Assembly (NCBI GenBank): GCA_002780065.1
Contig: PEWQ01000029.1
Coordinates: forward strand, 1-5,075
Reading direction: 5' to 3'
Length of the DNA stretch: 5,075 nucleotides
Origin: Candidatus Hydrogenedentes bacterium CG07_land_8_20_14_0_80_42_17
GTDB taxonomy: Bacteria; UBA8481
The notes below the pieces were generated by a model. It was not told the DNA's origin, did no database searches, and saw only the letters and a list, made by a program, of their open reading frames with translations. Position numbers and translations under genes: made by a program. Position 1 is the stretch's first letter, and every line of letters starts with the position of its first letter. Positions 1 to 5,075 of the stretch are shown here, piece after piece.

Positions 1-45
1 TAAGGGCGATTCATGTAAGGGCGATTCATGTAAGGGCGATTCATG
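1..45. repeat. 15-bp tandem repeat, three copies, inside the transposase frame
   Basis: TAAGGGCGATTCATG is repeated exactly three times (1-15, 16-30, 31-45) and may continue left of the window. On the minus strand each unit is read in frame as CAT GAA TCG CCC TTA (HESPL), so copies can be gained or lost without a frameshift. The unit is one arm of the palindrome at 30-57. Confidence 0.93.
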
Positions 46-354
46 AATCGCCCCTACAACATTATTATCATCCGTCCGCGCATCATCGGTAATCCATATT
101 ATTCCATGAAAATGATTGGGCATGATTACGTATTCATCTAATTTGACATTATCATAATGATCAGGCAAACCCATCCAACATTGTTCAACAATTTTTCCAT
201 ATTCATTTAATATCATTGTGCTGTTTTGGATATCGCCAAACAAACATTCACGATTTTTCGCACACAAGGTGATAAAATATGCACCTCGTTGGGAATAATC
301 ATAATTTTTCAGACGTATAGACCGACGATGATGTTTTTCTGGATTGTATGTCAT
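1..354 (-). CDS. REP-associated tyrosine transposase (Y1/IS200-like), 3' end outside window
   Basis: The minus-strand frame is open from the ATG at 354-352 to the window edge, giving the first 118 residues. Residues 15-31 (LKNYDYSQRGAYFITLC) and 77-85 (IMPNHFHGI) match the N-terminal half of Y1 transposases (Y1_Tnp family) of the REP-associated type. H81 and H83 form the HUH metal-binding motif. The catalytic tyrosine lies further on, outside the window, so I cannot tell whether the gene is intact. These enzymes act on single-stranded palindromic REP hairpins. Residues 104-118 are three HESPL repeats encoded by 15-bp tandem repeats, and the adjoining DNA is a REP-like palindrome. The start lies 15 bp after the toxin stop, with a weak AGGGA ribosome-binding site, so read-through from the toxin-antitoxin operon is possible. 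Family confidence is high; activity is unknown. Confidence 0.88.
   Translation of the reverse strand, partial: MTYNPEKHHRRSIRLKNYDYSQRGAYFITLCAKNRECLFGDIQNSTMILNEYGKIVEQCWMGLPDHYDNVKLDEYVIMPNHFHGIIWITDDARTDDNNVVGAIHESPLHESPLHESPL
30..57. repeat. REP-like palindrome within the transposase gene
   Basis: Bases 34-53 (GGGCGATTCATGAATCGCCC) are a perfect 20-bp palindrome. Extending to 30-57 gives 14-bp arms with one mismatch (A33 against C54). The strand could fold into a GC-clamped hairpin, the type of structure REP-associated transposases recognise. That it is a substrate of the overlapping transposase is inference. Confidence 0.8.
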
Positions 355-1198: not shown

Positions 1199-3106
1199 AT
1201 GAGGAATTTATTTTTCGCAATTTTTGCGATGATGATTTTTAGCTCGCTTCCTGCAATTGCAGAGCAGGATTTGAGTGACAAAGCTGATACTGTTTACACT
1301 TCAGCTCATGAGATAACTCTAGCGCAGGATGAAGATATAACAATTACCGGCGGCGGAATTGTTTGGATGAAACTTAATGTTGAAGGCTCGGGATTTTTGA
1401 AATTGAGACTTATTGGCGAGCAAATATCTTCTGCGCGTATGGATGTTTATGATGAGAATGCTGAGCTTCTCGGCAGAGCAGAGGAAGTTGATGGCGCGCA
1501 AGAAGTTAAAGTAGATGCTCGGGTAATTTACACTTATTACATTCGACTGAGCGGACAGAGAATTAAAGGCATCGCAAGATTGAAACTTTCCAGTGAACTC
1601 GAACCTCCGCCTCCGGATTATGAGGTTCCGGCAGATGCCGTTTCTTTGCAATTTAATGTGCCGACAAAGGGACATGTGACCTCTATAGAGAATAAATGGT
1701 TTAAACTTTCTATCCCGAAAAGTGCTCAGGGAAAATATGTCGTGGTAGATTTGGAAGGGAAGAATCAGGATGCGGATATTGATCTGGTTATGACCGACAT
1801 GAAAGGTTATCAATTATCCGGATCGAGTTCGCAGTATAGATTCGAACGTGTCTTTTCCGAAATACCTGAAGACCGAAAAGTTGCGCTGAACGTTTTTGTC
1901 TATCAACCAGCGGGAGAAGAAGCTCAAAAAACTCTTGAAAGCGATTTTGTTTTTAGAGCTTATACCATGGCTCAACCGCCTATCGGCCCATTTGCTCCGA
2001 ACCTTCCGACATCATTTACGGAGATTGAACCTGAACAAAAGATGTCGGGAATGATACAAGGAAATTCTGTTTGGTATCATTATTACATTGGGGATACAGG
2101 AACCTTGCAGATAAATTTTGAGGGTGAAGGATTGCAGATTGAAGTGCTTGCTGATGATGGCTCCAGTATTTTTGAAGGCAGGGCTGAGGCTGAACAAATG
2201 AACATTGATTGCGATGCAAATCAATACTCGCACTTTTATCTGAATGTGAGCGGATCAGGTCAGTACAGTTTTACAGGGCATTTGCTCTCAACTCCGGCCG
2301 CATTGGAAGACAATGGCTCTTTGGATGAAAACATCAATTCAGATAATGCCGGGAAAATAGAGACCGAAGAAAATATTCCATCTCCTGATGAAAAAATAAT
2401 TCCGACTTTGACAATTCTTTTTAACAAAAGCGATGCTGAGCGGTTTGAAATTATTTCTCCGCTTTCTTCGTTTTGCATCGGTCCGAGCGGCAAAATTATA
2501 ATTATATCGAAAGGAAATATTTTTGATTTAGTAAGTAAAAGTTTTTTAACTAATACAGGAAAAGTTGAGGATTGTGTTTATTCGCCGGATGGCGCGCTAT
2601 TGGCAATATGCGGAAAAAAACTTGGCTATTATGCCGGAGGAAACATACAAGAGGAATTAACTCTGCCTTCTGCCGAAATGAATATGGCGGCCGGTGATAA
2701 AGGACTTTTTCTATTCGGCGGCAAGGGCTGGTCCGCAAAAAGTTTATATTTCATAGAGCGGTCTAGAGGCTACACAAAAATTTGCGATATGCCTTCATCT
2801 ATTAAGTCCGCGGCTGTGAATGGAGACACATTATTTTTCTCGGTTGAAAACGATATTTACCGTCTTGCTTTTGGAAAAGAGATTTCGCTTGTTGTGAGAG
2901 TGCCGGGGCCTGCTATTACTTCATTGGCTGTTTCAAATGATGGAACAGTATTTTTTTTGGCAGGAAGAACTTTATATTCTTATAAAAATGCGACAGCAAA
3001 TTTAATCGCGGAGAATATCGGAGACATAATTAGATGGCACAATTCAGGGCTTTACATTTTGGATACGAAAAATATTTCATTGTTAAGATTCGAGAATTTT
3101 GAGTGA
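1199..3106 (+). CDS. Exported multidomain protein: three PPC-like beta modules plus propeller-like repeats
   Basis: I do not recognise this 635-aa protein as a named family. Residues 1-21 form a Sec signal peptide: basic start, hydrophobic core, then AIA before EQ as the signal peptidase I site. No lipobox or second membrane segment is visible, so it should be periplasmic or secreted. Three beta-rich modules follow (about 36-131, 146-256 and 273-362). The second, with DADIDLVMTD and SEIPEDRKVALNVFVY, resembles PPC (bacterial pre-peptidase C-terminal) domains; the first and third look like each other. Residues 363-402 are an acidic, Pro-rich linker. Residues 420-635 hold about six repeats of roughly 35 residues with strand-turn patterns such as YSPDGALLAICG and VSNDGTVFFLAG, suggesting a beta-propeller. 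No catalytic motif is evident. ATG 1199 is supported by GAGGTG and the signal peptide. The next gene follows after 10 bp. Binding or scaffolding is the likeliest role, by inference only. Confidence 0.85.
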   Translation: MRNLFFAIFAMMIFSSLPAIAEQDLSDKADTVYTSAHEITLAQDEDITITGGGIVWMKLNVEGSGFLKLRLIGEQISSARMDVYDENAELLGRAEEVDGAQEVKVDARVIYTYYIRLSGQRIKGIARLKLSSELEPPPPDYEVPADAVSLQFNVPTKGHVTSIENKWFKLSIPKSAQGKYVVVDLEGKNQDADIDLVMTDMKGYQLSGSSSQYRFERVFSEIPEDRKVALNVFVYQPAGEEAQKTLESDFVFRAYTMAQPPIGPFAPNLPTSFTEIEPEQKMSGMIQGNSVWYHYYIGDTGTLQINFEGEGLQIEVLADDGSSIFEGRAEAEQMNIDCDANQYSHFYLNVSGSGQYSFTGHLLSTPAALEDNGSLDENINSDNAGKIETEENIPSPDEKIIPTLTILFNKSDAERFEIISPLSSFCIGPSGKIIIISKGNIFDLVSKSFLTNTGKVEDCVYSPDGALLAICGKKLGYYAGGNIQEELTLPSAEMNMAAGDKGLFLFGGKGWSAKSLYFIERSRGYTKICDMPSSIKSAAVNGDTLFFSVENDIYRLAFGKEISLVVRVPGPAITSLAVSNDGTVFFLAGRTLYSYKNATANLIAENIGDIIRWHNSGLYILDTKNISLLRFENFE

Positions 3107-3116: not shown

Positions 3117-4037
3117 ATGAAAAAAAATGCTATTATTCTATTATTAGTAATGCTTTTGGAAATTTTGTTATTTATGCCTGCGCGAAGCGATTGGTATGAT
3201 GTTGACTATAACGGAGGGAATATTCCTGAACCTGGCGACCCCGAAATTGTTGATGACGGTTCGTCGGATAACTCTTCAAATTCGTCGGATGATGATTGGG
3301 ATCGCGAAGAGGCGGCTAGGCAGAGAGCTGAGCAACGTGAAGAGGCTCGGCAGGAAGCCGAACGAAGGGCGGCAGAACGCCGTGAGGCGGCTCGGCAGGC
3401 GGCTTTGGAAAGAGAGGCGGCTCGACAGGAAGCACAAAGGCAAGAGGCTTTGCGTAGAGCTGAAGCTCAGAGGGCGGCAGAACGCCGTGAAGCGGAACGC
3501 AGAGCTGAAATTGAACGGCAGAGGCTTGAGGCGGAATCCAAACGTCTCGGATTCGGACCACACATCCGCACTATAAGTGTTCCTGTACCTCAATCGTCGG
3601 ATATAACCTATTACAATGATCGTGAAATTAAATCGAATCGTTCGCCGGTTATTTCTCTCTCGTCAAGAACTTATGTAGTGATAGGAACTATCGGAAAATG
3701 TATCAAAGACATTCCTGCTAAAGTTGGAGAATTTATTTTGACGTATGCGGGGCGCAGAGTGGGAATTTCGGATGCTGAAGATTATCTTTCAATAATCAAA
3801 CTTAATAAAGGGCTCGCTGACGATGCAACTTCACAGATGCAGTCTGCGTTGAATATTATTCAGAGAGGCTATCCTGAACCGGAAACAAATGAATTCTTGA
3901 ACTCGTCGCAGAACCGTGGGCTTCGAGTCTTCGTCGACTCAATGTCAGATGTTCCGAGCCATGCTATTATTCTTTCTCCTACCGACGAAGAAGAATTGGA
4001 ACGCGAAGGACGAAGTTACTTCAAATGGCTGAATTGA
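3117..4037 (+). CDS. Exported protein with long charged Arg/Glu/Ala helix and unknown C-terminal domain
   Basis: This 306-aa protein is not recognised as a known family. Residues 1-24 (two lysines, a long Leu/Ile/Met core, then PARS before DW) form a signal peptide or an uncleaved N-terminal anchor. Residues 25-61 are disordered-looking, with Asp/Ser/Asn runs. Residues 62-144 are almost entirely Arg, Glu, Ala and Gln with no Pro or Gly, predicting one continuous helix of about 80 residues, either coiled coil or single alpha-helix. Residues 150-306 look globular, with TYVVIGTIGKC, LTYAGRRVGISDAEDYL and a second mixed segment near GLRVFVDSM; they contain a single Cys (C195). ATG 3117 is chosen because of the GAGGAGG site and the signal peptide. 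It forms an operon with the upstream exported gene, so the two products probably act together outside the cytoplasm. A TolA-like or cell-wall-spanning spacer role is possible but unproven. Confidence 0.85.
   Translation: MKKNAIILLLVMLLEILLFMPARSDWYDVDYNGGNIPEPGDPEIVDDGSSDNSSNSSDDDWDREEAARQRAEQREEARQEAERRAAERREAARQAALEREAARQEAQRQEALRRAEAQRAAERREAERRAEIERQRLEAESKRLGFGPHIRTISVPVPQSSDITYYNDREIKSNRSPVISLSSRTYVVIGTIGKCIKDIPAKVGEFILTYAGRRVGISDAEDYLSIIKLNKGLADDATSQMQSALNIIQRGYPEPETNEFLNSSQNRGLRVFVDSMSDVPSHAIILSPTDEEELEREGRSYFKWLN
3366..3490 (+). repeat. Internal repeat in the helix-coding region (105-bp period)
   Basis: AGGGCGGCAGAACGCCGTGA occurs identically at 3366-3385 and 3471-3490, in the same frame (residues R84 and R119). 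The 105-bp offset is 35 codons, or five heptads, which would keep coiled-coil register. Shorter related units (GAGGCGGCTCGGCAG-like) recur between 3309 and 3430. The pattern suggests the helix grew by in-frame duplication. Confidence 0.75.
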
Positions 4038-4080
4038 AAATGGACACGAATAAACACAAATTATTTAAAAAACCGGGGTC
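4038..4080. other. Short spacer between exported operon and IS remnant
   Basis: These 43 bp hold an imperfect 10-bp direct repeat (ACACGAATAA then ACACAAATTA) and an A-run followed by ACCGGGGTC, directly before the transposase start. I see no stem-loop terminator for the operon. The left end of the IS element may lie here, but no terminal sequence can be assigned. Confidence 0.35.
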
Positions 4081-4476
4081 GTGCAAGTAGCATTTTTGAA
4101 GCACGGAGAAACTCCACTCTACAAACTTGTCTCCGAGCGCTTCGATGAATTCGAGCGTGCTTATCCGGAGCGATATCAGTCGGCGTTTGGATTCTGGAGA
4201 ACGTTCCCCACCGGCAGTTCGTATTCACGATCCCAAAAAGGTTCCGGCTGTACTTTCGATATAACCGCACATTGCTCGGCAAGCTCCGCCGCGCCGCGTG
4301 GGAGACTGTGAAGGAAGTGTATCAGGTCGTGCTCAACGTTGAGGACGCCATCCCGGTAATGGTCGAAACAATCCAGAGTTTCGGGAGCCTGATGAACTGG
4401 AATTCCCATATTCACGCAATAATTTCCGACGGCGCTTTTCGCCGGGACGGAACTTTTATCCCTCTCACGAAGACGG
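4081..4476 (+). pseudogene. IS91-like (Y2) transposase remnant, internally deleted and 3'-truncated
   Basis: From GTG 4081, residues such as FLKHGETPLYKLVSERFDEF up to FGFWR (to 4200) match the N-terminus of IS91-type transposases. The homologous reading then jumps to another frame at 4203 (VPHRQFVFTIPKRFRLYFRY) and continues through WETVKEVYQVVLN, NWNSHIHAIISDG and DGTFIPL to about 4476. His codons at 4407 and 4413 form the HUH metal site. The part normally between FWR and VPHRQF, the cysteine-rich zinc-binding region, is missing: by memory of the family about 65 residues, together with a frame change. The second half carrying the catalytic tyrosines is also absent, so the element cannot encode an active enzyme. 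A TAA at 4066-4068 supports GTG 4081 as the original start. Family assignment is strong. Confidence 0.88.
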
Positions 4477-4519
4477 CGGTCACGTCAAATTGCTCGCAGC
4501 ATTGCATACATTTTTTTCT

Positions 4520-4548
4520 TTGACAATTTCGTCTCTGTCACGTACCAA
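4520..4548 (+). promoter_or_regulatory. Possible promoter before the glycosyltransferase-like gene
   Basis: A perfect TTGACA (4520-4525) is followed after 17 bp by TACCAA (4543-4548), a poor -10 box with 3 of 6 matches. Transcription would begin at about 4555, leaving almost no leader before ATG 4556. The flanking 4477-4519 sequence has no recognisable gene. Weak call. Confidence 0.25.
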
Positions 4549-4555
4549 TTTACCT

Positions 4556-5075
4556 ATGGTGACCTATGATGCAAAAATCAAAGTTCCTATCGGTATCGAG
4601 ACAAATCATGGGGTGCGCCGGATCTGCACTCGTCAAACGATTTGCGTTCGGCCGGATGACGGATACTGTCACGCCAAGGATCCACTGGTCTGGATTACGG
4701 TGCCCGGCGCGGGCGGGCGGGCGGGATTTGGTCCCCCGCTGGTCAATGCGTTTCACGCCTCGGGGTGCCGGGCGGTCGAGATGTCGTTCGCGCGGTTGCG
4801 AAAGGAGCTTTCCGCGGACGTTCCCGCGACTGAGGTTAATCGCGAGGTTGTTCGGAAGTTCTGGAACGCATTCAACGAGGATCGGCCGGATCTCCTTCTC
4901 GATATCTCCCCGATCCCCGCGGAATTGGTCGCCCGGATGAAGGAGCGCGGCACCCGCACCGCCTTCTGGCTCCTGGAAGATGCGCTCGATCCGGCTTACA
5001 GCTATTGGAAGGATACGGTGCCGTTCTACGATCTCTTCTTTGCTTTCCAGGGACCGCCGTCCGACTACCCCGGTT
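4556..5075 (+). CDS. CgeB/DUF3880-like glycosyltransferase, N-terminal part, runs off window
   Basis: The frame is open to the right edge (173 complete codons from ATG 4556). GGRAGFGPPLVNAFHASG (residues 53-70) looks like the glycine-rich first strand-loop-helix of a GT-B-type glycosyltransferase. RPDLLLDISPIPAELVARM (110-128) and TAFWLLEDA followed by YWKDTVPFYDLFFAFQ match the pattern of CgeB/DUF3880 proteins, roughly PDL-LLL, then TA-W--ED, then YW and YD-FF. Such proteins are often linked to cell-surface or flagellin glycosylation; the target here is unknown. The start is uncertain: ATG 4556 has no clear Shine-Dalgarno sequence, residues 1-45 resemble nothing I know, and GTG 4613 or GTG 4700 are alternatives. 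The gene is much richer in G+C than everything to its left, and its 5' end may have been altered by the rearrangement that cut the IS remnant. Confidence 0.68.
   Translation, partial: MVTYDAKIKVPIGIETNHGVRRICTRQTICVRPDDGYCHAKDPLVWITVPGAGGRAGFGPPLVNAFHASGCRAVEMSFARLRKELSADVPATEVNREVVRKFWNAFNEDRPDLLLDISPIPAELVARMKERGTRTAFWLLEDALDPAYSYWKDTVPFYDLFFAFQGPPSDYPG

Follow-up and report, generated by a model that had tools for sequence, protein, structure and literature searches.

The DNA analyzed here (the window, 5,075 nucleotides) is the left end of a 6,673-base contig, C203, of a genome assembly that comprises 2.39 Mb in 207 contigs and is an estimated 87% complete. Its first gene, on the reverse strand at positions 1 to 354, is a RAYT (TnpAREP) gene of which only the 5' part is present; its frame of 118 codons, open at the contig end, specifies residues 1 to 118 of a RAYT-like HUH protein and ends with ...NNVVGAIHESPLHESPLHESPL. 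The half gene matched NF047646 (REP_Tyr_transpos) with an E value of 5.4e-08 and a score of 32.8 bits, which is below the curated cutoff of 80, as might be expected since only half of the gene is present. A Pfam search with the fragment gave no match; a Y1_Tnp domain was found by Pfam in 26 of 35 full-length homologues. Relatives of the gene are spread over many phyla, with identities of up to 75%. The HUH motif NHFH (residues 80 to 83; positions 106 to 117, reverse strand) is evident from the sequence, and H81 and H83 are invariant in an alignment of 35 family proteins. The closest homologues, L012 and L013, have the WQ and YIxNNP motifs, as does L004, a complete paralogue; in the window gene, these motifs would fall past the contig end. 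An intact transposase is not demonstrable in the window because the frame runs open into the contig edge and the 3' half is missing. A preliminary description of the sequence had called the product a REP-associated HUH transposase, and this was supported by the NF047646 match; the palindrome is indeed REP-like, with the canonical GTAG foot.

Directly upstream of the RAYT gene and on the same strand lie genes for a YafQ-type toxin (370 to 591) and a RelB/DinJ-type antitoxin (636 to 899), and an inverted repeat that immediately precedes the antitoxin start, ATATTGTATCTCA/TGATATACAATAT at 928 to 955, is a possible operator of the antitoxin gene. Two adjacent genes on the forward strand encode predicted exported proteins, one of 635 residues (1199 to 3106) that had no match in Pfam or NCBIfam and one (3117 to 4037) with a charged E/R/A-rich region and a weak resemblance to TolA. 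Toward the window end (about 4060 to 5075, continuing in C203 to 6673), the GC content climbs from 30 to 43% to about 57%; a broken Y2_Tnp fragment lies near 4359 to 4460, and C203 contains a run of N beyond the window. These three features may reflect a chimeric scaffold, contamination of the bin or DNA that was acquired.

The REP lies at positions 34 to 57 (reverse strand) and consists of the foot GTAG (57 to 54), placed directly before the hairpin, and the perfect 20-nt palindrome GGGCGATTCATGAATCGCCC (53 to 34); it is read in frame as V-GAIHESP. It is followed by three exact 15-bp tandem units, CATGAATCGCCCTTA on the coding strand (HESPL three times; positions 1 to 45, reverse strand), which are duplications of the right arm of the REP. 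Thus, about 20 residues after the HUH motif, the coding strand reads GTAG-GGGCGATTCATGAATCGCCC-(TTACATGAATCGCCC)n, with the translation VGAIHESPLHESPLHESPL, and there the sequence stops. The three exact repeats coding for HESPL that had been reported from the sequence are indeed present, as TAAGGGCGATTCATG at 1 to 15, 16 to 30 and 31 to 45, but three is a lower bound, because the contig ends inside the array. The one-mismatch palindrome described at the last copy is also real, with arms of 15 nt (29 to 43 and 44 to 58) around a fully self-complementary core (34 to 53); the array, however, is not a series of three hairpins but one REP, the right arm of which, together with TTA, is then repeated. 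The folding energy of the coding strand as single-stranded DNA is -16.4 kcal/mol (z = -6.2 relative to dinucleotide shuffles), and the 24 nt of GTAG plus palindrome form an 8-bp stem with the 5' GTAG unpaired (z = -5.0). All of this is located, as described earlier, just after the HUH region, in the variable linker between strand beta3, which carries HUH, and helix alphaC (1 to 96, reverse strand; the window has the first part only), which is the REP insertion site of the family.

REPs in this linker are common among RAYT genes. We surveyed 90 distinct RAYT genes, homologues drawn both from GTDB genomes that span many phyla and from closer relatives of the window genome, for tagged REPs, defined as GT[AG]G-tagged hairpins of at least 7 bp; the linker was taken to extend from HUH to the conserved W. 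A tagged REP was found in the linker of 64 of the 90 genes and was undetected there in 26, whereas neither the N-terminal core (0/90) nor the part from W to the end (0/90) contained one and codon-shuffled linkers gave only 0.25 per 90. The mean best stem was 10.8 in the linker, compared with 6.1 in a stretch of equal length ahead of HUH and 5.5 in shuffled sequences. The translated linker REPs recur as GAIHE(S/L)P, GGSRTAPT, ADLRVCP...HTGSPL, GANNHSPL and RGVLQYAPT. Even within this genome there are three RAYT genes, each with an in-frame linker palindrome of a different REP family: the HESPL palindrome in the window gene, GTAGGGACAGGGCACCGCCCTGTCC in the gene on C205 and GTAGGGGCGAACCTGTGTGTTCGCCC in that on C143. 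The in-frame linker REP is not special to the window gene. In L012, L019 and L043, the linkers contain perfect palindromes of 40 to 46 bp that are symmetric beyond the GTAG foot into seemingly ordinary coding sequence, which suggests palindrome extension by template switching.

A structural model indicates why such insertions might do little harm. L013 is a full-length homologue that is 75% identical to the window gene over the N-terminal part; its AlphaFold model matches the fold of IS200/IS605 transposases and of the REP-bound TnpAREP 4er8. In this model, the linker has a pLDDT of 48 to 59 and the core is mostly above 90. The linker is therefore predicted to be disordered, and its low pLDDT implies that insertions in it should be tolerated. 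The linker of the window gene begins directly after HUH, and the equivalent residues of L013 fall in the part predicted to be disordered.

The number of 15-bp units, which the preliminary description had proposed to compare among homologues, does differ: L012 has one, L071 has two and L013 has two to three degenerate units. The homologues keep the bases and not merely the residues HESPL, so the possibility raised at the same time, that homologues encode the same residues by unrelated codons, was not confirmed. All 17 tandem arrays found in linkers have a period divisible by 3, as would be expected if changes that shift the frame are lost; in this RAYT family, the reading frame thus seems to be kept intact by selection. 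REPs with tandem partial copies are also found outside genes in this genome, at C62:1-110 (21-bp unit), at the right end of C205 (24-bp unit) and on C15. Since similar arrays of partial REPs arise outside genes, the most plausible reading of the window array is the usual instability of REPs, which a disordered loop tolerates, rather than a process driven by the protein. Just downstream of another RAYT gene (L128:243-290; genome G000, C17), a REP-like hairpin, GGCGAACACGTATGTTCGCC (MNPYNNGEHVCSPLRF...), supplies part of the coding sequence for the predicted N terminus of gatA, and the real start codon of gatA may be elsewhere than predicted.

REP arrays also break this short-contig assembly, and at least seven contig ends lie in them (C203 left, C143 right, C17 left, C62 left, C205 right, C202 right and C108 right). 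Genes of RAYT group 4 are therefore easily split in metagenome-assembled genomes. Leftward extension of C203 was unsuccessful, as the HESPL repeat occurs at no other contig end of the assembly. The sole unplaced RAYT 3' end, C17:1-230, was considered as the rest of the window gene and rejected; its HTGSPL repeat fits the gene on C143.

In relatives, the linker REP is often of the same family as REPs elsewhere in its genome. With up to 2 mismatches allowed, the linker REP was matched in the gene's own flanks (within 2 kb and outside the gene itself) in 16 of 48 cases, compared to 10 of 576 when genes were swapped (Fisher's exact test, p about 3e-13, with swaps treated as independent). In pattern searches of 40 genomes, the REP of GA(N/K)N-type linkers was present in all 8 of the genomes that have this linker type and in 2 of the 32 that do not, and that of the GAIHE(S/L)P type was present in 5 of 6 and 8 of 34, respectively. 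These genome-wide counts include the in-gene copy and are cross-tabulated by presence only; the flank test is therefore the cleaner of the two. Some genomes with other linker types also hold many copies of a searched palindrome. The genome of L025 (G011, Candidatus Stahlbacteria), for example, has about 60 palindromes resembling (A/G)GGCAATTCATGAATTGCC, while the linker REP of the RAYT retrieved from it differs; a second RAYT may be present there.

For the HESPL palindrome itself, the genome search that had been suggested did reveal a copy outside the gene, but a single, degenerate one: it lies in an intergenic region at C46:15634, has one mismatch and lacks GTAG (pattern search of the 2.39 Mb, 87% complete assembly). 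With one extra copy only, the HESPL palindrome is not abundant as a REP in this genome. The REP families of the RAYT genes on C205 and C143, by comparison, have further copies elsewhere in the genome, again by pattern search. Directly upstream of the RAYT gene in the window, no HESPL-family REP was found; the downstream side is unassembled. A link between REP and protein that is specific to the recognition helix was not supported beyond co-inheritance of the gene: in partial Mantel tests on the REP core type, the correlation was 0.14 for the helix given the N terminus and 0.24 for the N terminus given the helix, and the core type thus tracks how similar the genes are as a whole, with no special role of the presumed DNA-contacting helix. 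Since the core type follows the whole gene, co-inheritance explains the pairing of REP and RAYT as well as recognition does.

Taken together, positions 1 to 57 very probably represent an in-frame GTAG REP in the flexible linker of a RAYT gene of subclass 2.4 (group 4), the right arm of which was later duplicated in tandem. According to this model, a GTAG REP hairpin came to lie in frame after the HUH strand and ahead of the helix that follows it; it would belong to the REP family associated with the window RAYT, and the RAYT itself may have inserted it or may act on it. The right arm of the REP would then have been duplicated in 15-bp steps that keep the frame, for which slippage of the strand or mispairing induced by the hairpin is the most likely mechanism. 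The enzyme should tolerate the REP-coded residues because the linker lies outside the conserved core and is predicted to be disordered, and this tolerance would account for the presence of REPs at this site in most family members and in the conserved core of none.

Two other readings concern the tandem units. HESPL repeats could form a functional, length-tunable peptide linker in which the DNA palindrome is incidental. The preserved frame, with array periods that are all multiples of three, and the variable copy number among relatives would fit, but the peptides encoded in the linkers of relatives are unrelated (SRTAPT, ADLRVCP, ANNHSPL and LQYAPT), yet palindrome and GTAG foot recur in them; moreover, the bases are conserved and not the residues alone, and the linker is predicted to be disordered. 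We consider selection on the peptide quite improbable. That the tandem copies were made or miscounted by the assembler at the contig end is more improbable still: the array does sit on a contig edge, like the REP arrays at other contig ends of the assembly, but relatives such as L013 and L071 have degenerate tandem copies inside contigs, and the palindrome begins 34 bases into the contig.

A further alternative is self-targeting: the RAYT would bind or cleave the REP within its own gene or transcript, thereby limiting its expression or seeding new REPs, and the in-gene REP would be kept for that reason. The hairpin has the GTAG foot and the palindrome, both of which matter in other, studied TnpAREP groups (PMC8266576), the linker REPs of relatives match REPs in flanks and genomes, and REPs recur in 64 of 90 linkers. 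On the other hand, we found no binding data on group 4 enzymes, REP arrays outside genes and the REP-like hairpin at the gatA start argue that REPs go wherever they are tolerated, the only other copy of the HESPL REP in the genome is degenerate, and 26 of 90 genes have no detectable tagged linker REP. On balance, retention of the REP as a self-target or for autoregulation appears unlikely. A more elaborate version, in which the RAYT recognizes the in-frame REP, the in-gene copy serves as a permanent seed and as a feedback element through which the enzyme acts on its gene or mRNA, and duplication of the arm changes target and linker alike, is likewise unlikely. Self-targeting as such is compatible with the data, and the candidate hairpin shares features that matter in other TnpAREP groups. 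The window gene is an instance of a transposase-like gene with its presumed substrate in its own coding sequence, a phenomenon that has already been published. The survey adds numbers to it: 64 of 90 genes, none in the conserved core, own-flank matches above those of swapped genes and array periods in multiples of three. With these numbers, self-targeting becomes testable through synonymous recoding of the hairpin.

GTAG REPs are characterized by a GT[AG]G tetranucleotide at the hairpin foot and by repetition in the genome, mostly between genes. They have been described inside other genes in some cases (Di Nocera et al. 2013, PMC3733652). The window REP is like them in its 5' GTAG tag, its short hairpin, the occurrence of dimers and arrays and the occasional in-frame location in an ORF, but the examples in the main text of that paper are in unrelated genes (such as uvrA and recB), whereas the window REP is in the RAYT gene itself. 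The Rickettsia palindromic elements mentioned in the same paper are also palindromic repeats in frame within protein-coding genes; they differ, as presented there, in being CGTC-tagged or longer, in having no RAYT association and in residing in many different host genes. The closest counterpart is subclass 2.4 of TnpAREP, which corresponds to RAYT group 4 (Bertels et al. 2017) and in whose genes REPs are inserted between HuH and Y without disruption of the frame (Quentin et al. 2018, PMC6006769). Our search, which was confined to the open-access literature, found no subsequent publication on REPs within group 4 genes. The traits of the subclass are NH[IFV]H, WQ, YIxNNP, a variable beta3-alphaC insertion and REPs on the flanks of the gene (PMC6006769; Table 1 for the HUH motif). 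The window gene shares the NH[IFV]H motif (as NHFH), the variable beta3-alphaC insertion and the in-frame REP between HuH and Y; a long REP with three G-C pairs at the stem base and a patchy spread over many phyla are further common features, and W and Y are checkable in homologues alone. In contrast to the subclass as described, the right arm of the window REP is expanded to at least three 15-bp units. The window gene thus shows the subclass 2.4 features that are testable in its available half, and in it an already published phenomenon, the in-gene REP, is accompanied by an unusually clear expansion of the arm.
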